Virus record (IMG/VR): IMGVR_UViG_3300028384_000668
Location: 1-43,763 of that record
Direction: 5' to 3' (one strand)
Origin: a virus
Length of the DNA: 43,763 nt
Position numbers and translations under genes: made by a program. Shown here in pieces: positions 1,494 to 38,284 of this stretch; position 1 is the stretch's first letter; each line of letters opens with the position of its first letter. The notes below the pieces were generated by a model. That model did not search any database and had not been told where the DNA came from. It worked only from the letters and a program-made list of their open reading frames with translations.

Positions 1494-2267
1494 ATGAATC
1501 ATAAACCCTTAGAAGAAATTTACCAAATGAAGAAAATCTGGCGTGGGGACGAAATTCCTGTCGCTAGTTATCTAATGAGCTTTCAAGATGCATTACGTAA
1601 AGAATTCCTCGACGGTTTTGATTCTTTGGAAGAAGCCTGTAAAAAGTATACTACTGACAATTTAGATCTGCGTATGTTTGGTGTTGGACTAGATGAAACA
1701 ATACAAGGTGTTGAAATTAAAAATCTAGAAACAGGCGAATGGGAGAGAGATTTTACAGGTTGGAAAAGTATTCAATTTAAATACGGTCGACACGACGAAA
1801 TGATTGATTTCGAATTCCAAAGAAGCGATAACGATAGAATTGCTAAGAAATATCCTACAGCACACAACCTAGTAAAAGAATACGGCGAGTATTGTCCTAT
1901 TGCTAATTACAGTATTCTTGCACCTAACACTATTTTACATAGGCATAGTGGCCCGGAAAACAGAGATGGCAAATATATTCGAATTCATATTCCATTAATT
2001 ATACCCAAAGGTGATGTATTTTTAGAAGCTAGTGGTGAAGAAGTTACTTGGGATAATATTTGGGGATTTAATAACCAACACACTCATAGTGCATATAATA
2101 TGACCGACGAATGGCGTGTAATTTTTATGATCGACTTAGACATGGCACACATTGGAATGGAGCCTCAGGCAGCATTTGATCCTAGTATTGATTTAGCCGG
2201 TAACGGCGTTCACTTCAATAGAGACTTTTATAAAAAATTAAGCGAAAAATATGGGAGCAAATTTTAA
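1494..2267 (+). CDS. Aspartyl/asparaginyl beta-hydroxylase-like oxygenase
   Basis: A 257-residue protein whose C-terminal half fits the Asp/Asn beta-hydroxylase (AspH) type of the 2-oxoglutarate/Fe(II) oxygenases, enzymes that hydroxylate amino-acid side chains in proteins. Visible elements, in order: HRHSGPEN (first iron His), RIHIPLIIP (the conserved strand), GFNNQHTHSAYN (second iron His) and EWRVIFMIDLD (the Arg that binds 2-oxoglutarate). AspH proteins use two His without the usual carboxylate, and this gene follows that pattern. The N-terminal 120 residues are unassigned. GGAGG precedes the ATG by 10 nt. The stop overlaps the next gene by one base, so the two are probably translated together. 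The substrate is not evident. Confidence 0.85.
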   Translation: MNHKPLEEIYQMKKIWRGDEIPVASYLMSFQDALRKEFLDGFDSLEEACKKYTTDNLDLRMFGVGLDETIQGVEIKNLETGEWERDFTGWKSIQFKYGRHDEMIDFEFQRSDNDRIAKKYPTAHNLVKEYGEYCPIANYSILAPNTILHRHSGPENRDGKYIRIHIPLIIPKGDVFLEASGEEVTWDNIWGFNNQHTHSAYNMTDEWRVIFMIDLDMAHIGMEPQAAFDPSIDLAGNGVHFNRDFYKKLSEKYGSKF

Positions 2268-3085
2268 TGGAATATATACCTTCAGAAAATGCATTGAATG
2301 TAAGAAAAAATGAAGAACAAGACTCGTCTAAACTAGTAGAACATCTTTCAACTCAAAGGAAATTTCAGCTAGAGCATTATTTTAAAAATGATCCGCGAAT
2401 GTTTGAAATTGAAAAAAAGTATGGCAAGTATCTAATGGTGCCTCTTGCAATTCCTAAATTTGAGCTTGAAGATCCTGATCATTTTGTTGACTGGTACTTT
2501 AAATATGCTATACGTCCAGTAAAACAAAAAGGTGATTACGTAGCTCCTGATAAAGGGTTTTCACCATTTTACTCTGTAGACTTAATACAAGAAGTAGGGG
2601 ACGACTGGAATCTTAATATGCAAACTGACAACTTCAAACAAGAATTTCCTAAACTTTGGGATCAGTTTCACGAAACACTTCCTGTACAAAAAATTCTAAC
2701 TCTAAACTTATGGTCAAGTGTATGGGATTTTAACGAGCATAGAGACAGTGCAGAAATGTGGGATTGTCCTAATTCATTTAGAATTCCTTTGTATGATGAA
2801 AATCCATCTAATACTTTATTTGTTATGGACAATCCTACTGTAGATTACAAAGTAGAAGAAACACATTTTTTACCTACCTTAGAAGATACTAATACATTTA
2901 TGTGGAATAATTTACGATGTATGCACGGTAGTAGAAAAACCGAAGAACATAAAAAGATTATGGCTGTAGTAATTGCATTGATAGATCCAGATAAGTATGA
3001 CACTCTTATGTCAGCAAGTGTTGAAAAATACAAAGACTATGTATTAGAAAGCAAATACCAAATTACGGACTATGTAAATGTTTAA
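2267..3085 (+). CDS. Putative 2OG-Fe(II) oxygenase-like protein
   Basis: A 272-residue protein with a plausible double-stranded beta-helix iron site: FNEHRDSAEMW supplies an HxD pair, and RCMHGSRKTEEHKK supplies a distal His followed by basic residues that could hold 2-oxoglutarate. Between them lie strand-like segments (SFRIPLYDE, NTLFVMDNP). It is not close to the AspH-like genes and no exact family is recognised. It overlaps the next gene by 8 nt (ATGTTTAA), suggesting translational coupling. The reaction is unknown; the oxygenase assignment rests on the metal motif and on neighbours of the same class. Confidence 0.55.
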   Translation: MEYIPSENALNVRKNEEQDSSKLVEHLSTQRKFQLEHYFKNDPRMFEIEKKYGKYLMVPLAIPKFELEDPDHFVDWYFKYAIRPVKQKGDYVAPDKGFSPFYSVDLIQEVGDDWNLNMQTDNFKQEFPKLWDQFHETLPVQKILTLNLWSSVWDFNEHRDSAEMWDCPNSFRIPLYDENPSNTLFVMDNPTVDYKVEETHFLPTLEDTNTFMWNNLRCMHGSRKTEEHKKIMAVVIALIDPDKYDTLMSASVEKYKDYVLESKYQITDYVNV

Positions 3086-3680
3086 TTTTTTTAAAAAAAA
3101 AGAAAAGGTAGAAAATACTTTTCATAGATTTTTAGATATACCTATTGATCCTGAGATCGATCTATTCAAACGTGACGATTATGAAACATTGCTGTATAGA
3201 CACGTAACAGTCGATCGCGATGAAGTTAATCCTAAATTAATAGAATGGTTTGAAAATATAGGAATCAAGTTTCATTTATTTGAAGCATTTTATACTCCAC
3301 CTTACGGCGGCAAAATACCTGTACACACCGACACAACTGAAATTTGTGACGTTGCAAAAGTTAATTGGACTTATGGTGCACCAGGAAGTAAGCTAATTTG
3401 GTGGAAAGCAAAAGATGAAAAATATATAGATAAGTTCCATACTGAATTTGGTAATGAATATTTGACAGCAGAACAAAAGAATTGCAAAAGAGTTTTCGAA
3501 GCTGAAATTAAAAAACCAAGTCTTGTTAACATAGGACAATTTCACAGCACATATAATCCAACAGCTGAAGGTAGATGGACATTAAGTTTACCTTTGGTTA
3601 CTTTAGACGATACTAGACGATTAACTTGGAACGAAGCTGTAGACCTTTTACAGGATTATTTTGACGATGAGCAATACTAG
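3078..3680 (+). CDS. 2OG-Fe(II) oxygenase-like protein, paralog A
   Basis: A 200-residue protein starting MFNFFKKK. It has an HTD metal motif (GKIPVHTDTTE), the strand KLIWWKAKD, a distal His in QFHSTYNP and a candidate 2OG Arg in GRWTLSLPL. This layout matches small phage 2OG-oxygenase-like proteins. It is clearly paralogous to the gene at 4279-4863, which shares MFNxFKKK, EAFYTPP, SKLIWW, HSTYNP and GRWTL. The start region carries a run of T followed by nine A, a possible polymerase-slippage site. It overlaps the following SGNH fragment by 14 nt. The substrate is unknown. Confidence 0.7.
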   Translation: MFNFFKKKEKVENTFHRFLDIPIDPEIDLFKRDDYETLLYRHVTVDRDEVNPKLIEWFENIGIKFHLFEAFYTPPYGGKIPVHTDTTEICDVAKVNWTYGAPGSKLIWWKAKDEKYIDKFHTEFGNEYLTAEQKNCKRVFEAEIKKPSLVNIGQFHSTYNPTAEGRWTLSLPLVTLDDTRRLTWNEAVDLLQDYFDDEQY

Positions 3681-4286
3681 CGTAATTATAGGTATTGGTG
3701 ATAGTTGGACCCAAGGCGAAGGGGGATATCCTAAACACATTTGGAAAGAAAACAATGGCAGAATGTGGAAGCCATTATACGAATCAAAGCATCTTATACT
3801 GACAGATTTGACTTATTTGCATCGTATTGGAAAACAGATCATTATCAATTTACAACGCTGTGGCCATTTTTAAATCACAAAGAAGAACATAAATTTTACG
3901 GTGAAAAATTATACAGTGAAGAATCAGCAGCAGTAGAGACAGCGTGTTCTATTTTAGAAGCTCAAACATTTGCCAAGGCAAATAATTTTGACTTTATATT
4001 TGCAAATGGTTTTGAAATAAGAGGTGAAGAATACTTAAATAGGATGTGTCCAAATGTATCGCAAAAAATAGATTGGAGCAGATGCGTTCATACACACACA
4101 GATTATGACTGCTTTGCAAGGCTTTTTGCACGTAAAGATAACTTATGCAATGACGACTACGAATCAGTAGCTAAATTTTATCCTGCCATGGATTGGCCTG
4201 CTACTTACATGACTAATGATATGCATCCTACAATCGAAGGTTATAAATTAATAGCAAGTGAAATAAAAAGGATTTTTAATGTTTAA
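3667..4286 (+). pseudogene. Broken SGNH-hydrolase-like gene (internal deletion and frameshift)
   Basis: Two frames together look like one SGNH/GDSL-type hydrolase. The first, from ATG 3667 to a stop at 3873, begins with the nucleophile block GIGDSWTQGEGGYP. The second, readable from about 3785 to 4286, continues with RFDLF, WKTDHYQFTTLWP and ends with the catalytic block NDMHPTIEGYKLIA. The switch between frames falls near 3785-3805. The joined product would have only about 206 residues, and the segment that normally carries the central Gly and Asn blocks is missing, so an internal deletion plus frameshift is the simplest explanation. Such enzymes often remove or add acyl groups on glycans. 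An assembly error remains possible. The last bases overlap the next gene through ATGTTTAA. Confidence 0.75.
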
Positions 4287-4863
4287 TTTGTTTAAGAAAA
4301 AACCTTATGTTCATCAATATTTAGACCTTCCTGTTATGCCAGAAATAAACTTATTTGATTTATTTCCTGAAAATCCTAATGAGTTAAACCACGTAGAAGT
4401 CGATCCTAATACAATGCTCAACAAAGAATTTGTAGACTTCATAGAAAACATTCCAGGCCTTAGAGTAGATTTCTGGGAAGCGTTTTATACTCCGCCCGGT
4501 GGACGTATTTGGATTCACTCAGACCAAGATCACTTTACAGACATTGCTAGATTAAACATTACTTGGGGTCCTGAAGATAGTAAACTAATTTGGTGGGAAC
4601 CTAAAAAAGGAATAGAGTTAGAACCAATTACAACAACATTTGGTGTAAATTACTTACGTGCTGAACCAGAAGAGTGTAATGAAATACATAGTGCAGTTAT
4701 AAACAAACCTAGCATTGTACAAACTGGTATTTTGCACAGCACATATAATCCTGGGCCTACTGGAAGATGGACTCTTGCATTACCGCTTGCAGAGAGATCA
4801 AGTCCAAAATATGTTAGTTTTGAATTAGCAGTTGCAATGTTTGCTGATTACCTTTCAAAATAA
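4279..4863 (+). CDS. 2OG-Fe(II) oxygenase-like protein, paralog B
   Basis: A 194-residue paralog of the gene at 3078-3680. It starts MFNLFKKK and keeps every marker: EAFYTPPGG, the HSD metal pair (RIWIHSDQDH), SKLIWWEPKK, the distal His in LHSTYNP and GRWTLALPL with the candidate 2OG Arg. The ATGTTTAA overlap with the upstream gene is the same as the one before paralog A, which suggests that the segment was duplicated with its junction. It ends convergently, overlapping the opposite-strand methyltransferase by 16 nt. The reaction is unknown. Confidence 0.7.
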   Translation: MFNLFKKKPYVHQYLDLPVMPEINLFDLFPENPNELNHVEVDPNTMLNKEFVDFIENIPGLRVDFWEAFYTPPGGRIWIHSDQDHFTDIARLNITWGPEDSKLIWWEPKKGIELEPITTTFGVNYLRAEPEECNEIHSAVINKPSIVQTGILHSTYNPGPTGRWTLALPLAERSSPKYVSFELAVAMFADYLSK

Positions 4864-5531
4864 TAAAACATAAACCCACCCCATTTGCCTCTAAATAGAC
4901 TAACAAAGTCTGTAGCAAATCCTAGTATACTAGGAGTATGGTGTACTAATTTAAATTCTCTAAAGTAACCCAATGCCTGTTTATGTGTAAAACTAAGTTC
5001 AAATGGAATTTTCATTTGATCTAGTTCAAATTCTTTTGTAATAAATTTAGGATATACTTTGCGCTGAATCCATTTGCCGTACTTATTATACAAACCAACC
5101 ATTAAGTATTTTTTACTTAGAGATTTGACCTTTTTAACTGCTGTTTCAAATTCTGGCATATGATGTATAGAACCATTACATAATACTAAATCATATGTTT
5201 CGTTAAACTCAGCAGTTAAGAAGTTTGTTTTACGCCATTTAATGTTTTTATTGCCTACTTCTTTAGCAATTTTTTTACCATGGTCGATAGCATCACTAAA
5301 ATCAATCGCAACAATTTGTATGTTAGGAAAGTTATGTGCAATTATATTTGTAATAAATCCTGTTCCACAGCCAACATCAAGAACTGTTTTGATATCGTGT
5401 GTTTCAAAGAAACGAAGATACCTTTCATAAATCAAATAGTCTCCGTGATCTGTTACTTCTTCAGCAGAGTACTTACCTGGAAATTTAACAGAGCTATAGA
5501 AGTCTTTGATTTCTTTTTCTTTAGGAGTCAT
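4848..5531 (-). CDS. Class I SAM-dependent methyltransferase
   Basis: A 227-residue Rossmann-fold methyltransferase. Motif I, LDVGCGTGFI, is at about residues 51-60; an acidic strand end follows (IVAIDFSD); motif IV-like NGSIHHMPEFE is near the middle. These bind S-adenosylmethionine. The acceptor cannot be told; HHMPE resembles small-molecule or glycan methyltransferases rather than DNA methylases, which carry a D/NPPY motif that is absent here. It overlaps the TauD-like gene upstream by 4 nt, so it is the last gene of the operon that begins at 9436. Confidence 0.85.
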   Translation of the reverse strand: MTPKEKEIKDFYSSVKFPGKYSAEEVTDHGDYLIYERYLRFFETHDIKTVLDVGCGTGFITNIIAHNFPNIQIVAIDFSDAIDHGKKIAKEVGNKNIKWRKTNFLTAEFNETYDLVLCNGSIHHMPEFETAVKKVKSLSKKYLMVGLYNKYGKWIQRKVYPKFITKEFELDQMKIPFELSFTHKQALGYFREFKLVHHTPSILGFATDFVSLFRGKWGGFMFYYFER

Positions 5532-6604
5532 AGCAAGTCCTTAAACTTAAACGGTGGTTTGATAAATCCTGTTTTTTCAAGTTGCATAATCTTACGCAGT
5601 AATTTTCTGTGCTTTTGTGCATATTCTTCTTGCAAAAACGGCTCATAAAATTTGTCTAACAAGTTATCATATGTGTGTTCAATTCTATAAATTTTTCTAT
5701 CGTTAGTTTGTCCTACACGACGATGTAGAGTAATACTATTATCAAATGTTACAAAATCACCATCTTGTTCATACCAGTGATCGTATGTATACTTTTCACT
5801 AAACAGTTCAGTAGCAATAGCGTCAAATATTTTTTGACTCTCTTTTTCTGTAGCACCTTGAATACTGTGCATTGTCGGAGGCGAAAAATGTAATCCTTTA
5901 ATGCCCCCCGGACTTTGTATTACCATAGGCACTGGTGTAAAATCTTCTGGACACATTTTAAATTTAAGCACTGCTTCTTCACTAGGCCTAAACGGAGGAT
6001 CAACATCTGCACTATCGTATTTGTGCAATATAATCATATCATTTAATTCTGATCTAAAACTTTCTGATACGCTTTCGTAGTAGTCTGCGGTGCTTACAAA
6101 GCCCGTAGCAGTGCCTACAACGTTCTCTGCTGCTAGTAAGCTAACAGCGTGTTCAAATACATAGTTACCGCTACTGTGCATATGCCAGTCAAGCTCTTGA
6201 CCTCCGTATAAACCGTATTCTCCGTTTTCATCTATTGACGAACTAAAAAAGTTAACACTTTTACCGTTATCTGTTTGAATGCTTGCTTTGTAAAGTATGT
6301 CTAAAATGTCTTTGTCTACGTCTTCAACGAATGGCAAGTCTGCGTGTACTGCTAGTTGGAACGTATCCCAATCTAAATTATATTTCTCAAGTAAAGAATA
6401 TTTAAGACCCCAAAACTCAGGACCCCATTTGTGTATTAAATTAGAAAATGTATTAACATTGCAATTACTACCTCGAACAACTGTAACTAAGTTTTCTAAA
6501 TGTAATTTGCCTATTTCACGCCATTCTTCGTTTGAAATATTATTAACATCTAGATCATCAATAATAATGCCATAATTGCCAACTGGAAACTTTGTTATCT
6601 TCAT
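5528..6604 (-). CDS. TauD/TfdA-like oxygenase with HxH in place of HxD
   Basis: A 358-residue protein with the layout of TauD/TfdA-type 2OG oxygenases: an N-terminal domain, a proximal metal motif at residues 141-143, and the C-terminal GDFVTFDNSITLHRR (distal His 294) followed by Arg 303/307 that would hold 2-oxoglutarate. The proximal motif reads WHMHS, so the usual Asp is replaced by His 143 (CAC; one base from GAC). HxA/HxG variants are known in halogenating members, but HxH would give three His at the metal or no iron at all. It overlaps genes on both sides by 4 nt. It could be an oxygenase of unusual chemistry or a non-catalytic relative. Confidence 0.75.
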   Translation of the reverse strand: MKITKFPVGNYGIIIDDLDVNNISNEEWREIGKLHLENLVTVVRGSNCNVNTFSNLIHKWGPEFWGLKYSLLEKYNLDWDTFQLAVHADLPFVEDVDKDILDILYKASIQTDNGKSVNFFSSSIDENGEYGLYGGQELDWHMHSSGNYVFEHAVSLLAAENVVGTATGFVSTADYYESVSESFRSELNDMIILHKYDSADVDPPFRPSEEAVLKFKMCPEDFTPVPMVIQSPGGIKGLHFSPPTMHSIQGATEKESQKIFDAIATELFSEKYTYDHWYEQDGDFVTFDNSITLHRRVGQTNDRKIYRIEHTYDNLLDKFYEPFLQEEYAQKHRKLLRKIMQLEKTGFIKPPFKFKDLL

Positions 6605-8532
6605 ATTCCGATAACCTTTCCTCTTAAAAACTCTGTTCGAGTATAAGTATGCATTTGAGTTGTTAAAAAGTCTACTAGATTTGTAATTGTATCATTCTTG
6701 AAAGGACTAATAACATCATTATTAAAACTTACATATTTGAACTTTTTAAACTCTGATGTGTAACGCTTTTCTGCTGTAATAAACAAGTCGCTTTCTCTAT
6801 CTATCTCAGCAGCAGTAAGATACGGAAACTCATCTAATAGCCATTTTTTAATATCGTCTCTACAATCATTATAATCATAAAATAATTTAAGCATAAAAGA
6901 AGTTTCCATAGGTGCTACTACCTCACCAAATTTAATTGAAAGATTGTTTGCACTCTCATTATCGTCATCATAATACTCTGCAAATCTAGCATCAATCTTT
7001 TGAATGTGATCTTGTAAAGATGATCCAGGATTTTTTCTTAGAAAGTTTCTATAGAATAATTTGATAAATTCGCCGTAACCAATATTAGATTTTTTGAATA
7101 TTTTTTGTAATACCTTTCTAAGTAGTCCTGTGGTCCAAAATGCTCTTTGAGCACTAAATGCTATCCACATCTCTTTATATTCGTCTTTAGTGTAACTAAA
7201 ACTTTCTACAACTACTTCACTTTTTCTAAGTGTAATGTTGTTAGGTTGCATATTGTTATACTTTTTAACTGTTTTAATACCGTACTTTTCTCTAAATTCT
7301 CTACTGTAACTAGGAGTTTCTGGAAGCATATGCCAGTTATACAAACAAATATCCATATCGTGACTTGCATAAACGTCCATTTCGTGATACCATCTATCAG
7401 GTGTTATACCAGGAAGTCCACTTATGCATTCAGCATATGTACTAAATCCGTAATTATGTTTTAGATGATTTGCAAGATAAATGTGCTTTTCAAACGAGAT
7501 GTCACTACGAGAAATATTTTTTAAGACATCTTGATGTATGCTTTGTATACTTGCTTTATAACTTAAATCCCAAGTTAAATTATACTGTGCGTCAATATCA
7601 AGTATCTTTTTAATATATTCTGTATGCTTATCAGTTTTTGCAAAGCCTCCAAAATAAACATGAAAAAATGCAGGGTTTTCTAATTTTCTATCTGCCATAT
7701 ATTGGATAATTTCAATATCTCTTTCTTTAAGTATGCCAAAATTAGCATCACATAAGAAAATATATGCACAGCCTGCTTCTTCTAATACATCAATATCTGT
7801 TTTAACATGTTCTATAGACTTTTGTTTAACTTTCGCAGCAATGCCGCCGCCCCAATCGCAAAATGCACAACTGTAAGGACATCCTCTTGTTGTTTCTAAC
7901 TTACCATTAACTACATTACTAACCGGATGTGTAAATTCTCTTACTTCGTTTGCACATTCTAATAATGTTTCTCTTTGCATTTTGTAAGGGCTATAGTCCC
8001 AAAAGAATTGTGACTTATTTCCACGTTTTTTACTTTTATGATAAAAACCTCTACTTTTAGCAGGGTATACAACTTCGGTAACTGTGTCCCAATCAATACT
8101 GTTATCGTCGTTAATATTGTCTAATAAATCTGCAAAAGTTATCTCACCATATTCGCCGCCGTCAAGACTTGCATCTAAAAATGGATATTGCTTAAACCAG
8201 TCCATTTCGTGTTTGAAATATTGTTGAGGGCCGCCGCTAATAACTATGCAATTTGGAAATGTTTCTTTAACCCATTTTGCTATTTTTAGACATTGTACAT
8301 CGTTCCAAATGTACATACTAATACCAAATACATCAGGTTGTACTTTTAATAAATGTTCTTTAATTTTATCATCGTCAAATTGATAATTTATCCGTGGATG
8401 TATCCATTCCCATTTATCAGGATGTTTGCCTTTTAGCTCGTAATAGCTTTTTGCACTAGCCCATAAAAGCGGCAAATATACAGCCGACGAAGAATCCGGG
8501 TTATAAATTACAATTTTCTTTTTTTGAGTCAT
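6601..8532 (-). CDS. B12-binding-domain-type radical SAM enzyme
   Basis: A 643-residue radical SAM enzyme. Residues 1-140 resemble the Rossmann-like cobalamin-binding domain (IVIYNPDSS at the start, PDVFGISMYIW, IVISGGPQQY). The cobalamin-ligating DxHxxG motif is not seen, as in several relatives that bind B12 without it or have lost it. The [4Fe-4S] motif RGCPYSCAFCDWG is at about residue 217, followed by a TIM-barrel pattern (FLCDANFGI, SIQSIHQDVLKNISR, ECISGLPG). The last 230 residues are a helical C-terminal domain of unknown role. B12 radical SAM enzymes often methylate unreactive carbons or cyclise rings. Its start overlaps the 34-residue ORF upstream by ATGA. Confidence 0.85.
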   Translation of the reverse strand: MTQKKKIVIYNPDSSSAVYLPLLWASAKSYYELKGKHPDKWEWIHPRINYQFDDDKIKEHLLKVQPDVFGISMYIWNDVQCLKIAKWVKETFPNCIVISGGPQQYFKHEMDWFKQYPFLDASLDGGEYGEITFADLLDNINDDNSIDWDTVTEVVYPAKSRGFYHKSKKRGNKSQFFWDYSPYKMQRETLLECANEVREFTHPVSNVVNGKLETTRGCPYSCAFCDWGGGIAAKVKQKSIEHVKTDIDVLEEAGCAYIFLCDANFGILKERDIEIIQYMADRKLENPAFFHVYFGGFAKTDKHTEYIKKILDIDAQYNLTWDLSYKASIQSIHQDVLKNISRSDISFEKHIYLANHLKHNYGFSTYAECISGLPGITPDRWYHEMDVYASHDMDICLYNWHMLPETPSYSREFREKYGIKTVKKYNNMQPNNITLRKSEVVVESFSYTKDEYKEMWIAFSAQRAFWTTGLLRKVLQKIFKKSNIGYGEFIKLFYRNFLRKNPGSSLQDHIQKIDARFAEYYDDDNESANNLSIKFGEVVAPMETSFMLKLFYDYNDCRDDIKKWLLDEFPYLTAAEIDRESDLFITAEKRYTSEFKKFKYVSFNNDVISPFKNDTITNLVDFLTTQMHTYTRTEFLRGKVIGI

Positions 8533-8633
8533 CGGTAGATATGCGGAGATCTTTTTGATAGTTCTTTAATTTTTTTACGATACTTAAATCTAATATAAAC
8601 CGATCTAATTCTTTCATACAAGTTTCTTATCAT
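8529..8633 (-). CDS. Small basic protein, 34 residues
   Basis: The 97-nt space between the SGNH gene and the radical SAM gene is filled by one short frame starting MIRNLYERIRSVY and ending KRSPHIYR. Its ATG overlaps the stop of the upstream gene (ATGA at 8633-8630) and its TGA overlaps the start of the downstream gene (ATGA at 8532-8529). Perfect coupling on both sides argues that it is translated. About a third of the residues are Arg or Lys, and the sequence looks like one amphipathic helix. There is no signal peptide and no leader-core layout of a RiPP precursor. Function unknown. Confidence 0.6.
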   Translation of the reverse strand: MIRNLYERIRSVYIRFKYRKKIKELSKRSPHIYR

Positions 8634-9436
8634 CTTAACCTCTTTGCTAGTTCATTGGCAAGAAATTCGTGTGCCTCTTTTGTATAATGATATCTAGGTA
8701 ACATATAATTTTCAAACGGCATAATAGCCTTTATTGGATTTTCTAAAATATCATAATCTTTTACTCTATTTACAAAATGATTTCCAATTCTATTCATAAA
8801 CTGTGGTTCTTTATCGTTGATAAAATTTCCCTGTTTATCTATATCTGAATGTTCCCAATCTGCCCATTGAATAAGATTTCTATCTGGCCAAAGGATGTGT
8901 ACTTCAATACCTTTGGCTGTAAGATAATCTGCTGCATAATACAGAGCAATATGATCTTGTAAAGACTCAAAAGAATCATCAGCAAACTCAAAATAATTCT
9001 CTTTAAGCAAATTATTTTGTCTTAGTGTTAGTCTTTCGTCTTCTCCAGCAAGTGGATGAATTACAAAACTGCCTACAGTTTTTTTATTGCCATCTTCTTT
9101 ATATTTTATAAAAACACGGTTATGTGTTGTAAATTGTAAAATTACTACTGTGTCAGTGTAAGAATCTTCTGGAAAATAGGTAAATGCTCTAGCAGCAATT
9201 TCTTTATTAGAAATACCTTCGATACCTCGATTTTCGTAATCCCAACCTAGAAGTTTTGCAGTAATCATAGGAAAAGAGTTTTCTATATTATATTTTGCAA
9301 CTTTGCTATCATCAAAACGGTCACGAGCAATCCTAGCCTCTTTAAATGTCATCGAGGCGTAATTTGGTACAAACTTTTCTTCATAAAGCTCATTTCCTGC
9401 TGTGACACTACAGCCAAAAAAGTAAAGTTTTTTCAT
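8630..9436 (-). CDS. SGNH-hydrolase-like protein
   Basis: A 268-residue protein with SGNH-type blocks: YFFGCSVTAG at residues 4-13 (nucleophile Ser in GxS), NRGIEGISN (Gly block), TTHNRVF (Asn block) and PRYHYTKEAHEFLANEL (catalytic His block; the Asp normally three residues before the His is replaced by Arg/Tyr). Members act as esterases or acetyl-transfer partners on glycans and lipids. It has no signal peptide, so it would act in the cytoplasm. It is the first gene of a left-reading operon with a sigma-70 promoter at 9491-9463 and AAAGGA upstream of the ATG. Confidence 0.7.
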   Translation of the reverse strand: MKKLYFFGCSVTAGNELYEEKFVPNYASMTFKEARIARDRFDDSKVAKYNIENSFPMITAKLLGWDYENRGIEGISNKEIAARAFTYFPEDSYTDTVVILQFTTHNRVFIKYKEDGNKKTVGSFVIHPLAGEDERLTLRQNNLLKENYFEFADDSFESLQDHIALYYAADYLTAKGIEVHILWPDRNLIQWADWEHSDIDKQGNFINDKEPQFMNRIGNHFVNRVKDYDILENPIKAIMPFENYMLPRYHYTKEAHEFLANELAKRLR

Positions 9437-9462
9437 AAGTTTTCCTTTTGATTAATAACTAT

Positions 9463-9491: not shown

Positions 9492-9493
9492 GA

Positions 9494-9501: not shown

Positions 9502-9512
9502 ACTAAGTAATT

Positions 9513-9520: not shown

Positions 9521-9537
9521 AATCATTCTGGTGAACT

Positions 9538-29708: not shown

Positions 29709-29714
29709 TTTATA

Positions 29715-30717: not shown

Positions 30718-31528
30718 AATCGTTAAATGTTTCAAAGTTAGGCAACAATAAAAATGCTCTAATAATATTATCTTGATCGTTGGGATCTTCTAATGTTACT
30801 TTTCTATAATTTCTAGTATTCTTAGGTAAATTATAATTTACTGTTTTAGGATCAAAATTAGTAAACTCTATGTGAGTACTTTTATAAAAGTTTTTAACAG
30901 TTTCAATATATCCGTTAATGCCTATAGCTGATGACTTTAAACTTTTTTGATCAAAGTGAACATGCGGAATGAGAGATCCGTGGTCAGCAGTTACAAACAA
31001 GCAAATATCTTCATTATCTAAAAAATAACTTCTTAAATGATTATAATCTTTAAAGACTTTCTCAAATAATGTATCTTTACCTCCAGTATTAAAGGCTAAA
31101 AATTCTGCATGATCGTTTTTTGTAAACAATCTTAATACAGTTTGACGGGTGCCACCTGGGTGTATCTGCCATTTACTAATTTCAGGATTCCAGTGAATTC
31201 CCATTAAATTTTTAAATCCTTTATTTAAATATATGCTAGTTAACCAAACAGCTTTAGTATAATTTTCAATTTCAAATTGATACTGTTTATACTTTGAGTC
31301 AGAATAGTTCGAGAATGTATCGTCGGTAATTGTTTTACTATATAACCCTTTAGAAAAATACTTAAAAACGGATTGTAAAAAAGTATCACTGGTTGGCATA
31401 AAGTCTATAGTAGTTAAACGAATATTTACAATTCCTAAGTTTTCGTTAGGATGTTTATACTTGAAGAATAACTTTTCATGAGAATTAGATCTAGGCAATG
31501 TTTTATAAATCATATGGTCATGCGACAT
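30692..31528 (-). CDS. Unknown protein (278 residues)
   Basis: No family recognised. Notable segments are GIVNIRLTTIDFMP, MGIHWNPEISKWQIHPGGTRQTVLRLF, ICLFVTADHGSLIPHVHFD and VKIECT at the end. WQIHPGGTR and DHGSLIPHVHFD bring several His/Asp together and could form a metal or phosphate site, but this is a guess. No signal peptide or membrane helix is seen. It lies between an SGNH-type gene and a radical SAM gene in the long cluster; AAGGAA precedes its ATG. Confidence 0.75.
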   Translation of the reverse strand: MSHDHMIYKTLPRSNSHEKLFFKYKHPNENLGIVNIRLTTIDFMPTSDTFLQSVFKYFSKGLYSKTITDDTFSNYSDSKYKQYQFEIENYTKAVWLTSIYLNKGFKNLMGIHWNPEISKWQIHPGGTRQTVLRLFTKNDHAEFLAFNTGGKDTLFEKVFKDYNHLRSYFLDNEDICLFVTADHGSLIPHVHFDQKSLKSSAIGINGYIETVKNFYKSTHIEFTNFDPKTVNYNLPKNTRNYRKVTLEDPNDQDNIIRAFLLLPNFETFNDYGVKIECT

Positions 31529-31529: not shown

Positions 31530-32309
31530 TTATTTAATATTCCTTGTTATTAACTCATTAGCTAACCATCGATGACTGTCTAATCCGGGATGATATCCGT
31601 CTCTACCAGGAGCAAAATCAGTCTTCCATGATATAGGATTATCAACTATATTATTAATTAAGTTATAAGTATCTTTATCCCATGTACCCCAGTGTATTTT
31701 TATACCTTTACTTTCTGCTGCCGACTTTGCCCATTCTATGTAGTCTGCTATTTGAGATACTAGTACAGTATCTGTGTTTATACTCCAAATTTGAGTGGCT
31801 CTTTTTTTATCTCCTCTTTTAATATTAGGATGATGATTTACAAGCACATAGTCATTACTTGCTTCGTCCGGTAATAATACTCTATGTATAGTAGGTAACA
31901 TTATTACTGCTTCACTAACAGGATGCTGATTAATAAAAGTACAAAAAAGTTTAATAATATTTGGAATACTTCCACCCGGAACACCTAAGTTTGGAACATT
32001 GCTTATTTTTAAACTTTTTTCTAAAAAGTTTGCATATGTATACTTTGCCCCTACGCCAAATGTAAAGCTGCATCCAAACACAGCTGGAGTTTTTTCAAAC
32101 GTCCATTCTACACCCCTAAATCCATAAGAGTTAATAGAGTATTGCCACGGCTCTTTATCGTAAAATTTTTCTTTATCAATAAAATAAGGAGCAGTATACG
32201 CTGTTCCAACTGTATTTTTCTTTTTTGACTCGTAATAGACAGATTCGTTGTATGATGCTATTTGTTTTAAAGAAACTTTTGACGGTATTAGCTGATTAAT
32301 GTCAGGCAT
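31530..32309 (-). CDS. SGNH-hydrolase-like protein
   Basis: A 259-residue protein whose last 190 residues carry SGNH blocks: TPAVFGCSFTFGVGAKY (nucleophile Ser in GCSFTFG), NLGVPGGSIPN (Gly block), LPTIHRVL (position of the Asn block) and DGYHPGLDSHRWLANEL (Asp/His block). The N-terminal 65 residues include YSINSYGFRG, a motif frequently found ahead of SGNH domains in phage and exopolysaccharide proteins. Likely an esterase or O-acetyl-handling enzyme acting on a glycan. It has no signal peptide, and GGAT precedes the ATG. Confidence 0.82.
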   Translation of the reverse strand: MPDINQLIPSKVSLKQIASYNESVYYESKKKNTVGTAYTAPYFIDKEKFYDKEPWQYSINSYGFRGVEWTFEKTPAVFGCSFTFGVGAKYTYANFLEKSLKISNVPNLGVPGGSIPNIIKLFCTFINQHPVSEAVIMLPTIHRVLLPDEASNDYVLVNHHPNIKRGDKKRATQIWSINTDTVLVSQIADYIEWAKSAAESKGIKIHWGTWDKDTYNLINNIVDNPISWKTDFAPGRDGYHPGLDSHRWLANELITRNIK

Positions 32310-32310: not shown

Positions 32311-33762
32311 TTAATCCTCGTAAGTTGCTAACGGAATATCTATATTTTTGTTATCAGGATTTAACACCCAGCCTTCTTTCTCTGCAAGTTCCATAATACT
32401 TACATCTGTATTCGGAATGCTTTCTACCCAATCTGTAAGAATCTTTGGAAACACATTTAGGCTTTTGTTTCTGCGTACATCATACTGTGCGTAAAATGTT
32501 TTAAAATCTCGCCACAGTGTAACAGGATTGCTTGTACGTCTATGCGGAGCATCTACAGTAACAAGATAATCTAACAATCTTTCAATACTTGCTTTTTCAA
32601 ATTCGTGCCAGCCTTTGTCGTCTTTACGTGATTGCCACCATGTATTCAAATTATTATAACAATAATCTTTAATGTGATTAGGTAATGCTAATGGGCTCTG
32701 AAAACTTGGGAAGCGTAGCAAGTTTAAACTTACTGTAGGTGTTCTACTTTGTGTAAGTTCTTTTAGTTTGTATACTTCGTCAAGGAAGTCTGTAATACTA
32801 AACAAACAAAGGCTGTTAATTGTCATCATGATGTGTACACCTTTGTAGTTTGCTTCAGTAAGAATGCGTTTGATGTTGGTTAGCCATTGCTCGTAATCTA
32901 GTCCGTCACGAATATACTCTGCTTGCGCTCCTGTTGCTTCACAACTTGTGTACAATTCAAAGTGTTTGATGTTCTGTGTTTTAGCAATTAGTTTGTCAAC
33001 AATGTCTTTTTTAGCAATTAGATTGCTGTTAATAGCAAAACGCATATCACTGTCCTGTGCTTCAAACCAATCAAACAGTTTCCAGGTGTTTCCGCTCATT
33101 AAAGGTTCACCGCCTGTAATACGTAATTCTTCTAAACTTTCGCTTAGTCCATTATCCCACCATTTCCAAAAGGCTTGAATGTAAGGATTGTCTTCGTCAT
33201 TCTTATACGGCTGTGTCCAGGAACCGTCCTGCTTAAACGCACCTGCACCGTCACTTACAAGATTAGTGTACTCTCCATTATTTTTAATATCTTTAGCCCA
33301 AGTAGTACTAAAACTTGCATTACAATATGAGCAAGCAAGATTACAAGTGCGATCAAATGCAATTTCAAATGTTTTAAGGTTAACACTTTTATTGTGATCC
33401 ATTTCGTATGCACGTTGTAATTCTTCGTCTGTGTAGATGATACTCTTAAAAGTTCTATCGCTTACAGCATCTTTGCCCATGTCTTCCATCTTCCAACAAT
33501 ACTCGCATTCACGAGGACGTTCGCCGTTCTGCATCATACGGCGCATTTCTTTTTTATGAGCTGTATTATGAATTGCCGATGGATCTGCTTCAACTTCTAC
33601 TAATGGAATTTGATGTGCAGGAGGGTGATGACAACTTGTAGTTGTTCCGCTGCCTAACCAAGTAGTAGCATTGTACCACTTTGCTCCACAGAAACTTTTA
33701 CTTTTGCTGTCTAGTACTCTGTCTCGATACTGCTGTAATGTTTCGTCAGTCTTCTTTGGCAT
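32311..33762 (-). CDS. Twitch-domain radical SAM protein, paralog 1
   Basis: A 483-residue twitch-type enzyme with the N-terminal module SFCGAKWYNATTWLGSGTTTSCHHPPAHQIP and later RECEYCWKMEDMGKDAVSDR. The core motif RTCNLACSYC is at about residue 138, then LRITGGEPLMS and a long C-terminal region with LNLLRFPSFQSPL. It is a tandem paralog of the next gene upstream (33746-35128), sharing SCHHP, CSYCWKxEDxGKD, YCxxxFSxxW and RDGLxYxQW. The CHHP in place of a CC pair may provide His ligands to the auxiliary cluster. Confidence 0.9.
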   Translation of the reverse strand: MPKKTDETLQQYRDRVLDSKSKSFCGAKWYNATTWLGSGTTTSCHHPPAHQIPLVEVEADPSAIHNTAHKKEMRRMMQNGERPRECEYCWKMEDMGKDAVSDRTFKSIIYTDEELQRAYEMDHNKSVNLKTFEIAFDRTCNLACSYCNASFSTTWAKDIKNNGEYTNLVSDGAGAFKQDGSWTQPYKNDEDNPYIQAFWKWWDNGLSESLEELRITGGEPLMSGNTWKLFDWFEAQDSDMRFAINSNLIAKKDIVDKLIAKTQNIKHFELYTSCEATGAQAEYIRDGLDYEQWLTNIKRILTEANYKGVHIMMTINSLCLFSITDFLDEVYKLKELTQSRTPTVSLNLLRFPSFQSPLALPNHIKDYCYNNLNTWWQSRKDDKGWHEFEKASIERLLDYLVTVDAPHRRTSNPVTLWRDFKTFYAQYDVRRNKSLNVFPKILTDWVESIPNTDVSIMELAEKEGWVLNPDNKNIDIPLATYED

Positions 33763-35128
33763 TCCATTCCTCTAATAAATCTTTAAACTCCGGAAAAGTT
33801 TCCGTAAAATTTTTATTTCTTCTTTTATCGTATGCTTGTATGTATCGTACAAAGTCTTGTCTATGTTCCACTGCTGGCTCAGTTGTACGTAAGTAATCAC
33901 AGAATCGTTGTATTTGATTAAATTCTTCTAAATAAATCCTAGCATATTTTTCTTTACGATAATATTTTAGCCAGCTCTCGCATAATTTTTCTATTGTAGC
34001 TGCTATTACAGTTCTAATATCTTTATCTAGCAATGTACATTGTAAATGTGGCGGCCAATGCATGATATTAATACTTAGTGGAATCCTATTGTGTTCAAAT
34101 GTGTTATTATAGTCTTTGCGCAATTCCATAACTAGTTCTATAAAATCTGTAAAACTAGGCAAACTTAAAATGTTTATAGTTGTCATAATAGCAACATTAG
34201 AATCGGTTTCTTCTAGAAGTCTACGGACGTTATATATCCATTGTTTATAATTTAATCCGTCTCTTGCATATTCTGATTGACTACCTGTACTTTCTAGACT
34301 AGTATATACATCTACTTTAACACCTACTTGTGCAAGAGCATTAATTTTTTCTATCAATTTGTCTATTAGTTTATTTTCTACACACCCATTTGTATTGATT
34401 GCTACATCTAAGTCTTTACGTGGGTTTTCAATTAAGTAATCTAAAAGTTTCCATGTATCTTTTGACATCGTAGGTTCGCCGCCTGTGATGCGTAATACTT
34501 TTAATTTTTGAAGAGCATCAGGAAACCATTTCCAAAATGCTTCTACATACGGATTGTGTTCTCTATTTAGATAGGGCATTTTACCTGTCTTTTCTAAATA
34601 GTCTAAATGATGGGCGCCGTGATTAGTAGGATAAGGTCCATTCTGTTTTACATCTTCCATCCATTTAGAGCTAATCTCAGGTGAACAATATGCACACGCA
34701 AAGTTACAAGCATTACTAAATGATACTTCTAAATAACTAGGATATACATTTTCTCCCGGATCACTATATGCTATTTCTTCAAATCTGTCCCAAGCCCATG
34801 TGTCTGCTGTTTTATAATGACGATCACTAAAATAATCTTTACCTAGATCTTCAATCTTCCAGCAGTAACTACATTCACTAGGACGTTCGCCTGTAAGCAT
34901 CTTTAAACGCTGTTCTTTTTTATACTGACTATTGTGCAATGCAGCAGGATCTTCCTTAATTTCTGCTAAAGGAATTTTATGCGGAGCAGGATGGTGACAA
35001 CTATGATTATACCCATTCTGAAGCATAAGCGTAGTTTGCAACCATTTGGCTGTGCAGAAACTACAACTAACGTTGTTTATTGATTCACGCTTTTCTTCTA
35101 ATAGTTTTATACGCTGTTCGTTGCTCAT
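33746..35128 (-). CDS. Twitch-domain radical SAM protein, paralog 2
   Basis: A 460-residue tandem paralog of the previous gene. The N-terminal module reads SCSFCTAKWLQTTLMLQNGYNHSCHHP and SECSYCWKIEDLGKDYFSDR; the core motif NACNFACAYCSPEISSKW is near residue 140; LRITGGEPTMSKDTW follows. The shared C-terminal part contains INIMHWPPHLQ, the counterpart of LNLLRFPSF in the neighbour. The pair may act in sequence on one substrate or form a heterodimer. It overlaps both neighbours (17 nt and 4 nt). Confidence 0.9.
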   Translation of the reverse strand: MSNEQRIKLLEEKRESINNVSCSFCTAKWLQTTLMLQNGYNHSCHHPAPHKIPLAEIKEDPAALHNSQYKKEQRLKMLTGERPSECSYCWKIEDLGKDYFSDRHYKTADTWAWDRFEEIAYSDPGENVYPSYLEVSFSNACNFACAYCSPEISSKWMEDVKQNGPYPTNHGAHHLDYLEKTGKMPYLNREHNPYVEAFWKWFPDALQKLKVLRITGGEPTMSKDTWKLLDYLIENPRKDLDVAINTNGCVENKLIDKLIEKINALAQVGVKVDVYTSLESTGSQSEYARDGLNYKQWIYNVRRLLEETDSNVAIMTTINILSLPSFTDFIELVMELRKDYNNTFEHNRIPLSINIMHWPPHLQCTLLDKDIRTVIAATIEKLCESWLKYYRKEKYARIYLEEFNQIQRFCDYLRTTEPAVEHRQDFVRYIQAYDKRRNKNFTETFPEFKDLLEEWNAKED

Positions 35129-36021
35129 TTAGCTTTTCTTATAACTCTAGGAGAATTATTGTAAAGTGCTTTAAAAAACTTGCTGCCTTCTGCATCAAGC
35201 TCGGCAATTTCAATACCTAACTCTGACCGTAATAGGTCCCCTTGACCTTCGATTGCTCCAAGTAAGTCTTCTTCGTCTAAAATGTCTTTGGCATCCCACT
35301 GTGTGTTTAGCCATTTAAAGTCGCGTACTTCTGCATAATTCCAGTCTGTAAGCATAGTTTTGATAAGACCTTCTCTTGCACCGTGTATGCTCCATAATCC
35401 ATTTTCAACGTCGGCACCTACAGTACACCAAACACGCAATCGATCAAAGTTTTGCCACCAAGTTTTGCGAATATCTTCTACTTTTGTACCCTGATCTAAA
35501 GCCATTTTGACGCCTTCACGAAAACCCGCCCTCCAAGCCTGCCAAGGTGTCGCATTAGTATAAGAAACGCTGTAGTTCTCGTTAAACTGATAATACTTGT
35601 CGTCAAAACAGAATTCAACTTTTCCTCTTTCATCGCCGTCCTCACTTGCTTCGTGTGTTTTCATATTGTGAACAAATTTACGTGTCCACATTTTTAGTCC
35701 GCCGTTACCGTACATAAGTCCGTTAACGTGTACTTTGCCACACCAACTAAAAACATGCTCAGGTGTTAGTCCCAATTCTTCATAATCAACTTCTACATTT
35801 AAAAATTCTTGGTTGATAATATTATCAGCATCGACAGTGATAAAATATTCAGTCTCACTTAGATCTGCACAAGCCTTATGTGCTGCATCACTACCTTCTA
35901 CTCCGTGTACTCGTTTAGCCCAAGGAACTTTACTACATAAGTCTGCATAGTTTTTTTCTGCATTGGGTTCGTCATAGGATAAGAAAATAATGTCTTGATC
36001 AACTATTTTAATTTTGCTCAT
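35125..36021 (-). CDS. Glycosyltransferase-like protein (DxD motif)
   Basis: A 298-residue relative of the second unit of the protein at 28671-29708: QDIIFLSYDEPNAEKNYA, RVHGVEGSDAAH, YFITVDADNII (DxD) and GLMYGNGGLKMWTRK. A further conserved tail, TPWQAWRAGFREGVKMAL and NFDRLRVWCTVGADVENGLWSIHGAREG, is shared as well. The pattern suggests a GT-A type sugar transferase, although the family has no confirmed reaction that I know of. The last 50 residues are a helical extension absent from the relative. Confidence 0.7.
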   Translation of the reverse strand: MSKIKIVDQDIIFLSYDEPNAEKNYADLCSKVPWAKRVHGVEGSDAAHKACADLSETEYFITVDADNIINQEFLNVEVDYEELGLTPEHVFSWCGKVHVNGLMYGNGGLKMWTRKFVHNMKTHEASEDGDERGKVEFCFDDKYYQFNENYSVSYTNATPWQAWRAGFREGVKMALDQGTKVEDIRKTWWQNFDRLRVWCTVGADVENGLWSIHGAREGLIKTMLTDWNYAEVRDFKWLNTQWDAKDILDEEDLLGAIEGQGDLLRSELGIEIAELDAEGSKFFKALYNNSPRVIRKAK

Positions 36022-36589
36022 CTAAAATCCTTGTTAACTGGTAAGTATCGAACTTTCTAGCAGTGTAAACACTTACTGGAATGTTTGTTGTTTCAAAAGG
36101 CATATCAAAAGGTACTACACAATAATTATCAGCAACAGTCTGGCCTATGTGTACAGAAAGAGTCTTGTAAAGAATATTAGGATCGCCTTTTTTAGTTACA
36201 CTAAACAAAAAACTAGCATTTAAGTTAATTCCTTTACGTTTAATGTTTTCTTTTAAAGATTTACCTAATGTAATTTTCCAACAAGTGTTTGGTATATCTT
36301 GTATTACTTGAACATCTGCATCGTCGATAACATCTTCTGGTAATTCATAAATTGAATCATTAACAGTAAATGCATCTAGTGCAAATTCATATTTAGATTT
36401 AAGTTCTAGCTCTTTATTTTTTGGGTTATAGTGTACATGATAATTTGACATATCCTCAGTGCCGTTAATCAAGTTCATTACATCTGATAAAGGTAGTTGA
36501 ATATAACTATCAGTATCGTCTACTACATTTGAAATACTTTGTATTTCGCCCGTATCTTTGTTAAAAATTATATATGCTACTTTTGACAT
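36008..36589 (-). CDS. Unknown protein (193 residues)
   Basis: No family recognised. It begins MSKVAYIIFNKDTGEIQSISN, with a strand-rich first part, then KYEFALDAFTVNDSIYELPEDV and a second strand-rich part (WKITLGKSLKENIKRKG, ILYKTLSVHIGQTVADN). The N-terminal pattern (xxYIxxNxxTGEIxxI) is frequent in small phage proteins attached to virions or carrying peptide-like arms. It lies between two glycosyltransferase-like genes, overlapping both by 13-14 nt. Function unknown. Confidence 0.72.
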   Translation of the reverse strand: MSKVAYIIFNKDTGEIQSISNVVDDTDSYIQLPLSDVMNLINGTEDMSNYHVHYNPKNKELELKSKYEFALDAFTVNDSIYELPEDVIDDADVQVIQDIPNTCWKITLGKSLKENIKRKGINLNASFLFSVTKKGDPNILYKTLSVHIGQTVADNYCVVPFDMPFETTNIPVSVYTARKFDTYQLTRILDEQN

Positions 36590-37410
36590 TGTTCGTACTT
36601 CTTAATAATATTATCTGTGACAAAACTATTTTCTGTATAGTGAAAGATAGTGTCTTGTAAATGATTACCTACTTTTAGTGTTACATCATCGGCTACATAA
36701 GTACCTACTCTGTCTTGCCAACTACTAGTTTGATTCCACCAATCTTGTATTGCAGGCTTCATATGTACAATCATCGGCAAATCTAGTTTGTTATTTGTAA
36801 ACTGCGTGTCAATATCCATAATTTTTGCAGCAATAGCACAAGTAATGTCCATACTAGGCATTTTAGGATAATATTCTTTGCAGAAATTGCCATAAAATAA
36901 TTCCCAGTTATTACAAATAAGCTCTACCCAAGTATAGTATTCTTTACAAAAGTCACATTTTTTAAAGTAATGTAAAGTATTATATACACTAGGAAGATTA
37001 TTTGCAACAAATGCCTTTCTATAAAAATTATTAGTAACTAATTCTTTTCTATACGTAAAGACTCTTGATGGATAATACAGATTATAATTACTCATTAGAC
37101 TCCAAAAAGAGTCTAAATCTTGTTGCACTAATACATCACTATCTAAAACAATAGTTTCTTCATATGGTGTGGCGTGATACAACTTCCATCGGTGTTCTGT
37201 TTGAAATCTACTGTCTGTTTCTTTATACCACGGTATATCAATAACTTTATCAAACACCGATTTATATATATCAGGTAATACATTGTTAGTTACTATACTT
37301 ACAGGATATTCATTGTCAGATGCACGAATACTTAAAGCACATAGATATGCTTGCTTTACGTAATCTTTACCCGAAGCGTAAATTAAAAAACCTCTATTTG
37401 GTAATTTCAT
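36577..37410 (-). CDS. Glycosyltransferase-like protein, GT8-like
   Basis: A 277-residue protein with RGFLIYASGKDYVKQAYLCALSIRAS at the start (nucleotide-sugar entry strand), then VSIVTNN, TIVLDSDVLVQQDLDSFW (DxD motif) and MDITCAIAAKIM, in the order of GT-A enzymes that resemble family 8. The paralog at 37394-38284 shares YxKQAYxxA and ETxVLDSDV. The two are adjacent and overlap by 17 nt. Probably transfers a sugar to a glycan or to a protein; donor and acceptor are not evident. Confidence 0.75.
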   Translation of the reverse strand: MKLPNRGFLIYASGKDYVKQAYLCALSIRASDNEYPVSIVTNNVLPDIYKSVFDKVIDIPWYKETDSRFQTEHRWKLYHATPYEETIVLDSDVLVQQDLDSFWSLMSNYNLYYPSRVFTYRKELVTNNFYRKAFVANNLPSVYNTLHYFKKCDFCKEYYTWVELICNNWELFYGNFCKEYYPKMPSMDITCAIAAKIMDIDTQFTNNKLDLPMIVHMKPAIQDWWNQTSSWQDRVGTYVADDVTLKVGNHLQDTIFHYTENSFVTDNIIKKYEQCQK

Positions 37411-38284
37411 CTATACACCTATTTAAACTAAACTTGTTCATAACGTGAACATTTGCATTTTTAATACGCAACGGCATGTATTCGCCTTTATAACCTTCTT
37501 TTTCTAATAACAAAAGCATACTGTCGTCATCTAAACTCCATAATATACTTTTATCTGTAGTATAATACAATACACCGGGCATTGGCTTTGCAAAATCTCC
37601 AGTAGAATATCCGTTCATAATGTGTATTGCAATACTAAAACTGTAATCATTCCTATAATAAGGTGTATTGATCTGAAAAATGTTTGTATAATGTTGCCAA
37701 TTTTCTTGTATATGCTTTAGTAAATCAAAAAAGATCTTGTTTGCTGTACTTTTTCTAAAGAACACACAAGTTGCCCAGTAAAAATCTACACTAGTATCAC
37801 TAATCCTATCAAATACGTTTGCACGGTCTACGTTTGCAATATCATATGAAGTCTTATATATTAAGAAATTGTGTTTTTGCTCGAAGCACTGTTTTAAAGT
37901 ATCATTGTATATTACAACATCGCTATCTAAAACTAATGTTTCGTCATATGGAGTAATGTCATATGCAAGTGTTCTCGTTTCGTTTTTAAATTGAAGTTTC
38001 TTTTCAACTAACGAACCATCGTTATATGTTCTAATATCGTGTTTTTCGTGGTTAGATTTAGTAGTATTAACAGACAGTTCTTCATCTTTCCACACAATAC
38101 TAATAATGTTGTCAAACACATCCTGTGCATCAGGGTACTCTGATAACAGGTACTCTGTACTATCAGTTACAATAGTAGTAGGTAGATCTAAAAACTGTTT
38201 TGCTCGTTGTGCTAAGAAGTATGCTTGTTTACAATAATCTATTTGTGCGTTATTACGAGCAAAGACTAATACACCTTTACTCAT
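37394..38284 (-). CDS. Glycosyltransferase-like protein, GT8-like
   Basis: A 296-residue paralog of the preceding entry: GVLVFARNNAQIDYCKQAYFLAQRAK, TTIVTDS, PYDETLVLDSDVVIYND (DxD) and YRNDYSFSIAIHIMNG. The region VDFYWATCVFFRKS between them corresponds to the acceptor side of the fold. It overlaps the 117-residue gene upstream by 8 nt and is the second gene after the consensus promoter at 38681-38653. Confidence 0.75.
   Translation of the reverse strand: MSKGVLVFARNNAQIDYCKQAYFLAQRAKQFLDLPTTIVTDSTEYLLSEYPDAQDVFDNIISIVWKDEELSVNTTKSNHEKHDIRTYNDGSLVEKKLQFKNETRTLAYDITPYDETLVLDSDVVIYNDTLKQCFEQKHNFLIYKTSYDIANVDRANVFDRISDTSVDFYWATCVFFRKSTANKIFFDLLKHIQENWQHYTNIFQINTPYYRNDYSFSIAIHIMNGYSTGDFAKPMPGVLYYTTDKSILWSLDDDSMLLLLEKEGYKGEYMPLRIKNANVHVMNKFSLNRCIDEITK

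Follow-up and report, generated by a model that had tools for sequence, protein, structure and literature searches.

Radical SAM enzymes and glycosyltransferases joined to fibre genes in a T4-superfamily virus: a candidate fibre-tailoring island

The host recognition cluster (HRC) of pelagimyophages, with a mean size of 44.6 kb, contains fibres, glycosyltransferases (GTs) and, in some genomes, cassettes of radical S-adenosylmethionine (rSAM) enzymes (PMC7029224). In jumbo cyanophages such as S-SSM6a, a cluster of halogenase, 2-oxoglutarate oxygenase (2OG) and carbamoyltransferase genes was published in 2021 (PMC7824862). A 2017 report gives 12 rSAM genes for the marine T4-like environmental genome TARA_ERS488813_N000010 (183 kb; PMC5332604), and glycans have been reported on capsid and tail tube proteins of mycobacteriophages (Freeman 2023, cited in PMC12619734), so that the principle of virion glycosylation is established. 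We have analysed bases 1-43,763 (the window) of the 66,696-base linear virus record IMGVR_UViG_3300028384_000668, which begins at gene g01. In this window an island of 42 called genes (g02-g43) lies between the Mtd_N adhesin g01 and the fibre/collar set g44-g47, with a coding fraction of about 1.0 and a widest intergenic gap of 101 nt. The reading that we tentatively favour is that of a fibre-linked glycan-tailoring system decorating the phage fibres.

The island resembles the pelagimyophage and cyanomyophage HRC (PMC7029224) in being hypervariable, of similar size, located among structural genes behind a baseplate gene and composed of fibres and GTs. It differs by the dominance of rSAM genes (11-16 here), by a fixed core of GTs and "twitch" rSAMs joined to the fibre gene run, and by the phage lineage, which is of the RaK2/Atu_ph07/Phosso type by baseplate and capsid. 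The HRC is located between the baseplate gene VrlC and the neck gene gp14. The baseplate/fibre side of the island corresponds to this in kind, whereas in the relative G001 the far side is occupied by the g01-type adhesin, followed by an ATPase and a DNA polymerase; since gp14 was not found on that side in G001, the island was not filed as a pelagimyophage HRC. By analogy, the island appears to work like an HRC, which is the closest published object and of which it would represent an extreme variant. With the S-SSM6a-type cluster it shares a halogenase and several 2OG enzymes within one phage cluster, and in S-RIM44 halogenases and 2OG genes are found just after the giant tail fibre gene. Unlike that cluster, the window revealed no carbamoyltransferase by Pfam, and the rSAM and GT core dominates. 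TARA_ERS488813_N000010, likened here by description only, is a T4-like marine genome with the same rSAM load; the accessible part of its report presents the genes as iron-sulphur metabolism, without an island or a fibre linkage. Within the open-licence literature covered, neither this genome (PMC5332604) nor the cyanophage cluster (PMC7824862) is described with a fibre-GT-twitch core. The term "undescribed", given to the system in an initial annotation of the window, is nevertheless too strong in view of these precedents (PMC7029224, PMC5332604, PMC7824862). Gtr-type serotype-converting glucosylation involves a membrane flippase, GtrA, and a multi-span GtrC; no such protein, and no multi-span membrane protein at all, was found among 41 island proteins of the window, and the islands of two relatives contain one multi-span protein each. 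Iron-sulphur supply was considered as a reason for the rSAM load and rejected, an A-type carrier having been found in only one of eight phage records of this set.

The genes and the site that carry the argument are listed below with their window coordinates and strand.

94..1449, plus: g01, Mtd_N-type adhesin (PF18454 above cut-off), left border, pointing into the island
32311..33762, minus: g37, core twitch rSAM (NF033640, 300 bits)
33746..35128, minus: g38, core twitch rSAM (NF033640, 343 bits)
35125..36021, minus: g39, core glycosyltransferase, GT-A/GT2 by AlphaFold 2 (AF2) model and Foldseek, with an invariant DAD
36008..36589, minus: g40, conserved protein located between the GTs
36577..38284, minus: g41 and g42, paralogous GT-like proteins (weak PF11051), kept in about 50 loci
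38277..38630, minus: g43, linker gene (117 aa) between fibre and GT
38685..39683, minus: g44, fibre-type protein, candidate substrate
39713..39720, minus: TATAAATA, T4-late-promoter-like, about 30 nt upstream of g44
39716..43763, minus: g45, g46 and g47, tail fibre/collar genes, right border; the module runs on beyond the window

Scanning with g37 yielded 137 relatives in viral contigs, of which 80, being 68-90% identical, were kept; the loci are not independent samples, since they were recruited via g37 and are mutually related. Their conserved order is g47-g46-g45-g44-g43-g42-g41-g40-g39-g38-g37, after which rSAM, GT and methyltransferase genes change from locus to locus. At least 7 kb was available ahead of g37 in 59 loci: fibre homologues were present in 48 of these, g39 in 53 and g41 or g42 in 53. 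In 51/51 loci there is no spacing between the g43 stop and the g42 start, which abut or overlap (gap of -11 to 0 nt). The enzyme cluster therefore keeps its place beside the fibre genes (48/59 loci), and its genes form a physically linked system in the relatives instead of occurring singly at unrelated sites. Clustering by chance is excluded because 11-16 rSAM matches within 40 kb recur in all five long relatives checked (13/13, 14/16, 16/16, 12/12 and 11/11 of their matches).

In G001, G002 and G005, whose islands measure about 37, 45 and 36 kb, respectively, the far border is formed, as in the window, by a g01-type adhesin pointing into the island, and the borders agree on both sides. The 119 island proteins of these three relatives include 38 rSAMs, four PF05118 proteins, one TauD, one other 2OG, one halogenase and one AMP-binding protein. 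Because PF05118 is found in only 4 of them against 38 for rSAM, the oxygenase half of the window (2OG, halogenase, AMP-binding) is variable cargo, whereas the end with the GTs and twitch rSAMs, which adjoins the fibres, is the constant part. Other islands hold relatives of g08, g11, g12, g13, g18, g19 and g25 in their half next to the adhesin. Homologues of g11 and g12 are found again in G004 and G005, and g18 recurs beside g19 in phages and in Bdellovibrionota. The left half (g02-g19) differs strongly between relatives. The idea of a single pathway is thus retained as regards one linked system by the fibres but not as regards an even mixture of 11 rSAM and 10 2OG enzymes, the core consisting of GTs and twitch rSAMs.

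All 24 genes from g24 to g47 are co-directional, with gaps of at most 54 nt. As they form one closely packed run from g47 to g24, the fibre and enzyme genes are probably made together, late in infection. In 33 of 47 loci, TATAAATA lies ahead of g44 and directly follows g45. A general role of T4 late promoters was rejected: TATAAATA is under-represented in the window (2 seen vs 8.9 expected by chance), and only the pre-g44 site, which is one of the two, recurs.

The AF2 model of g39 (pLDDT 88) matches SunS, ThuS and TarP by Foldseek and both aspartates of D63-A-D65 are invariant in 23 sequences; on this model, g39 is assigned as a glycosyltransferase of GT-A fold. The NF033640 family, whose curated cut-off is 170 bits, is built of an auxiliary iron-sulphur "twitch" domain ahead of the rSAM domain. 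Besides g37 and g38, this cut-off is exceeded by g20 (233 bits), g26 (409) and g31 (230); the other five rSAMs scanned are below it, g09 having been left out of the scan. In g37 the auxiliary cysteines C24, C43, C85 and C88 as well as CxxxCxxC (139-146) are invariant in 28 aligned sequences (25 g37 relatives, g37 itself and its paralogues g38 and g26). PDB sequence search returned weak matches only (SkfB, MoaA). The g37 AF2 model (pLDDT 85) resembles peptide-acting and sugar-acting rSAMs about equally poorly, so its substrate is not settled by the fold.

Cellular relatives were sought by scanning bacterial genomes with g26 relatives, and those closest to g26 were found in Bdellovibrionota (43-47% identity, on contigs of up to 937 kb). 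Among 18 such loci, a g30-type rSAM is present in 15, a g32-type in 15, a g33/g39-type GT in 9 and a g29-type gene in 8. GT2 genes are frequent around the shared rSAMs, and a membrane span is predicted in 37 of 168 genes of these bacterial neighbourhoods. In each of three Bdellovibrionota genomes 22-33 NF033640 matches were counted, most of them grouped in a single array of about 30 kb; such arrays in G014, G015 and G016 (L217-L222) comprise some 9-15 twitch rSAMs, G014 also having g18- and g19-type genes. These arrays have g26, g30, g32, a GT and a methyltransferase in common with the phage island, and differ from it in being chromosomal, in having more membrane proteins and GT2 genes nearby and in showing a fibre-type gene in one genome only. 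In that genome, the Bdellovibrionales metagenome-assembled genome (MAG) G013, contig 21 (139,884 bases; L224-L225, 127-139.9 kb) displays the phage-type order after pheS and pheT: g26, g33, g32, g44, g43, g42, g41, a g40-sized gene, g39 and further rSAMs, without g45 or g46 beside the fibre-type gene. Identity to g44 is 29% for the fibre-type protein (E=1e-20), and the g43 homologue shows 33% identity. Tetranucleotide usage of the island part correlates at 0.81-0.83 with the rest of its own contig and at 0.24 with the window; this host-like usage speaks against mis-assembly of a phage contig. When the G013 g42 homologue was used as GT query, no further match appeared in 241 sampled genomes of the phylum. 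Several MAG contigs (L155-L159 and others from G267 and G261) were excluded: judging by their rSAM arrays or g45-type fibres, they are probably phage contigs that ended up in the bins. Recent capture of the set from a Bdellovibrionota host was rejected: the g26, g30 and g32 trees display long separate phage and bacterial branches and require more than one phage-bacterium transfer, and tetranucleotide usage differs between the phage and the bacterial islands.

Under the favoured reading, the cytosolic GTs g42, g41 and g39 would build or attach a sugar, and the twitch rSAMs g38 and g37 would rework that sugar or its attachment site. Accessory enzymes of rSAM, 2OG, methyl-, halogen- and acyl-type, differing by phage, may then vary the group. 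The likeliest acceptor would be a fibre protein such as g44, cytosolic until assembly, and the modification would change fibre binding or shield the fibre. Decoration in the cytosol is suggested by the shared gene run, by TATAAATA before g44 and by the window's island, in which no flippase, polymerase, lipid-linked GT or export machinery was found. The fibre-GT-rSAM order on the G013 chromosome, the layout of the cultured jumbo phages Atu_ph07 and Phosso described below and the position of the shared rSAMs among GT2 genes in Bdellovibrionota also count in favour of this reading. Several observations weigh on the other side. The fibre as acceptor is a point that we infer, and the fibre proteins of this clade have few cysteines and no obvious shared peptide tag. 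G004, G009 and L074-L079 keep g38-g37 without adjoining fibre genes. The bacterial fibre-GT-rSAM order comes from a single genome, where it lies at a contig end; when 291 genomes from the phylum were searched with a profile of g44, no comparable match appeared elsewhere, only two marginal partial ones. Gene overlap is weak evidence, since T4-like phages often have overlapping genes. Envelope glycolipids, too, are substrates of PF05118 enzymes and GTs, and GTs of the lipopolysaccharide (LPS) core need no membrane span.

A less probable alternative is that the enzymes remodel the surface glycan of the infected host (LPS or O-chain), with superinfection block or progeny release as the outcome. 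Such is the published reading of GT-rich islands beside fibres (PMC7029224; PMC7824862), which likewise counts against decoration of the fibres, and it is compatible with the GT2-rich Bdellovibrionota neighbourhoods of the shared rSAMs and with a patch of rSAM and GT-like genes near a PagP-annotated gene in Vibrio phage K566. The lack of a flippase, polymerase or lipid-linked GT in the island argues against it, as does the fibre linkage kept on a bacterial chromosome, where superinfection by sister phages is not an obvious reason; moreover, the T4-late-like site and the run of fibre genes point to expression late in infection, at a stage where exclusion is of less importance. On balance, fibre decoration is somewhat likelier than a change of the host surface. 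It is unlikely that the cassettes were acquired independently at a hotspot and act on several unrelated substrates, only the GT-rSAM core being one pathway. The strongly variable left half, where 2OG, halogenase and AMP-binding genes come and go, and the repeated transfers in the g26, g30 and g32 trees would be in agreement with it, but the borders and the core order are fixed, g26, g30, g32 and g29 travel together in phages and bacteria, and g18 with g19 is a recurrent pair.

A diffusible secondary metabolite or a ribosomally synthesised and post-translationally modified peptide (RiPP) as product is very unlikely. The enzyme mix (rSAM/SPASM, halogenase, hydroxylases, AMP-binding fragment) is like that of natural-product clusters and g37 has weak structural matches to anSME and CteB, but neither an exporter nor a non-ribosomal peptide synthetase or polyketide synthase is present and the adenylation domain is a fragment. 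With gaps of at most about 100 nt and a coding fraction of about 1.0, a dedicated precursor gene would not fit in outside the called frames. No obvious shared tag was found in the fibre proteins; a virion protein may nevertheless be the substrate, and cultured relatives have a tag-bearing protein there. Hypermodification of phage DNA or nucleotides can hardly be credited: viral GTs and 2OG enzymes can modify DNA, but no nucleotide-metabolism genes were found in the island, its position is on the fibre side, and the same set occurs on bacterial chromosomes among GT2 genes.

A more specific form of fibre decoration, which we regard as doubtful, is that the GTs and twitch rSAMs build a non-standard sugar or a cross-linked group as a finishing step on the fibre, and that the same pathway acts on fibre-like adhesins of predatory Bdellovibrionota. 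If so, the same chemical code would underlie receptor binding by the phages and prey recognition by the bacteria. If the fibres are decorated at all, their specificity in these phages would be partly chemical and not readable from protein sequence alone. rSAM enzymes catalyse reactions that other enzymes cannot; to our knowledge, phages do not use them in bulk on their own virions, and we know of no rSAM or oxygenase chemistry in mycobacteriophage virion glycosylation. By tying GTs and twitch rSAMs to a fibre gene, this conserved and widespread island points to a concrete candidate substrate of NF033640 enzymes, in a unit of about eight genes for which cultured relatives exist.

The baseplate wedge protein is 35-37% identical to those of SCTP-2, Atu_ph07 and Phosso and 33-34% to those of RaK2/GAP32-type jumbo phages. 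G001 (200.8 kb) has a capsid protein 71% identical to that of Phosso and carries T4-type portal, terminase and DNA polymerase genes. In 50,697 phage records, no match above about 24% identity was found for g37 and g38, and none at all for g39. On these wedge, capsid and T4-type genes and weak g37/g38 matches, the window is assigned to a jumbo-type myovirus lineage of the T4 superfamily without a close cultured member. In the cultured rhizobial jumbo phages Atu_ph07 and Phosso, the order wedge, giant protein, fibre, rSAM occupies the same place; in Atu_ph07, fibre and rSAM are separated by a JmjC/cupin oxygenase. Vibrio phage K566 (L216, 161-178 kb) has several twitch-like rSAM genes and GT-like open reading frames (ORFs), about 9 kb from the PagP-annotated gene.

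The remaining features of the island are as follows.

1494..4863, plus: g02-g06, 2OG oxygenases (g02 PF05118; g03, g04 and g06 weaker) and the frame-broken SGNH gene g05
4848..8532, minus: g07 methyltransferase, g08 TauD-type 2OG oxygenase, g09 rSAM with a weak B12-binding N-terminus
8630..10780, mixed strands: g10 (minus), SGNH-like by eye; g11 (plus), AMP-binding fragment; g12 (plus)
10766..11983, minus: g13, flavin-dependent tryptophan halogenase family (PF04820, E=2e-79)
11959..16387, minus: g14, g16, g17 and g19, PF05118 hydroxylases; g15, phosphatase-like (CX5R); g18
16441..20202, plus: g20 twitch rSAM, g21 kinase-like (weak), g22-g23 propeller-like repeat proteins
20170..31528, minus: variable rSAM half, with rSAMs g24, g26, g27, g30, g31, g32 and g34
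20170..31528, minus: in the same half, g25 2OG, g29 methyltransferase-like, g33 tandem GT, g28 and g35
31530..32309, minus: g36, SGNH-like by eye, no Pfam match, homologues in relatives

The initial annotation had counted 11 rSAM enzymes, and PF04055 was indeed found in 11/11 at the places given, 10 being above the curated cut-off and g37 just below; CxxxCxxC is intact in all of them. The ten 2OG enzymes claimed are a less uniform group: six exceed the Pfam cut-off (PF05118 in g02, g14, g16, g17 and g19; TauD in g08) and g25 is linked to the PF05118 profile by HHalign (94%), with weak assignments for g04 and g06 (g04+g06, only 68%) and for g03 (an HxD...H motif alone). The flavin halogenase is borne out by g13, which is about 30% identical to cyanophage and pelagiphage halogenases. 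The methyltransferase proposal is strong for g07 and weak for g29; among the four proposed GTs, g39 has the GT-A/GT2 fold and g33 is its homologue, while g41 and g42 give weak Pfam GT matches. The proposed adenylating enzyme, g11, is reduced to an AMP-binding domain fragment of 224 aa, the phosphatase (g15) and the kinase-like protein (g21) are both sub-threshold, and the SGNH assignment of g10 and g36, made by eye, has no Pfam match behind it. The broken SGNH gene g05 (3660-4286) is split by a frameshift, with the GDSW motif in one frame and DxxH in another. As had been stated, no replication, nucleotide or head gene was found within the island, and it lies between two tail modules, g01 on one side and collar/fibre and baseplate-type genes on the other. 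RNA families and tRNA were sought in the window and none was found.

To the right of the window are located a collar protein, a 5,149-aa virion structural protein, a gp6-type wedge, a gp25-type protein and a hub/lysozyme. Just beyond the window, at about 43,750-44,680 of G000 (L009:754-1680), an ORF translates to X, which corresponds to a run of N inside the fibre module. The proteins g22 and g23 (17838-20202) contain recurring "LPYGE"-type motifs, g22 with a weak kelch/propeller match. In G001, two halogenase-type genes and a carbamoyltransferase-like gene, akin to the cyanophage halogenase cluster, stand outside the island at 52.9-58.2 kb (L102).

The rSAM patch after the fibre in Atu_ph07 and Phosso includes a protein ending in CHxSCHxSCHxSRSRR. 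This invariant 16-residue tail, CHxSCHxSCHxSR[G/S]RR, ends phage proteins of about 106-310 aa belonging to two large unrelated body families, for example Atu_ph07 gp170 (L130:21119-22009), Phosso ORF289 (L132:15415-16335) and proteins of L244-L323. It was not found in the window's clade, and no published report of it was found in the open-licence literature searched. A scan revealed at least 120 stretches; among the matches listed, the tail is exactly C-terminal in 95/95 and a same-strand CxxxCxxC ORF lies at most 4 kb away in 84/95, or in 17/17 where the flanks allow. PF04055 matches, mostly 3-5 each, were detected in 12/12 contigs tested. Judged from these features, the CHxS tail looks like a RiPP-type peptide substrate of rSAM enzymes.

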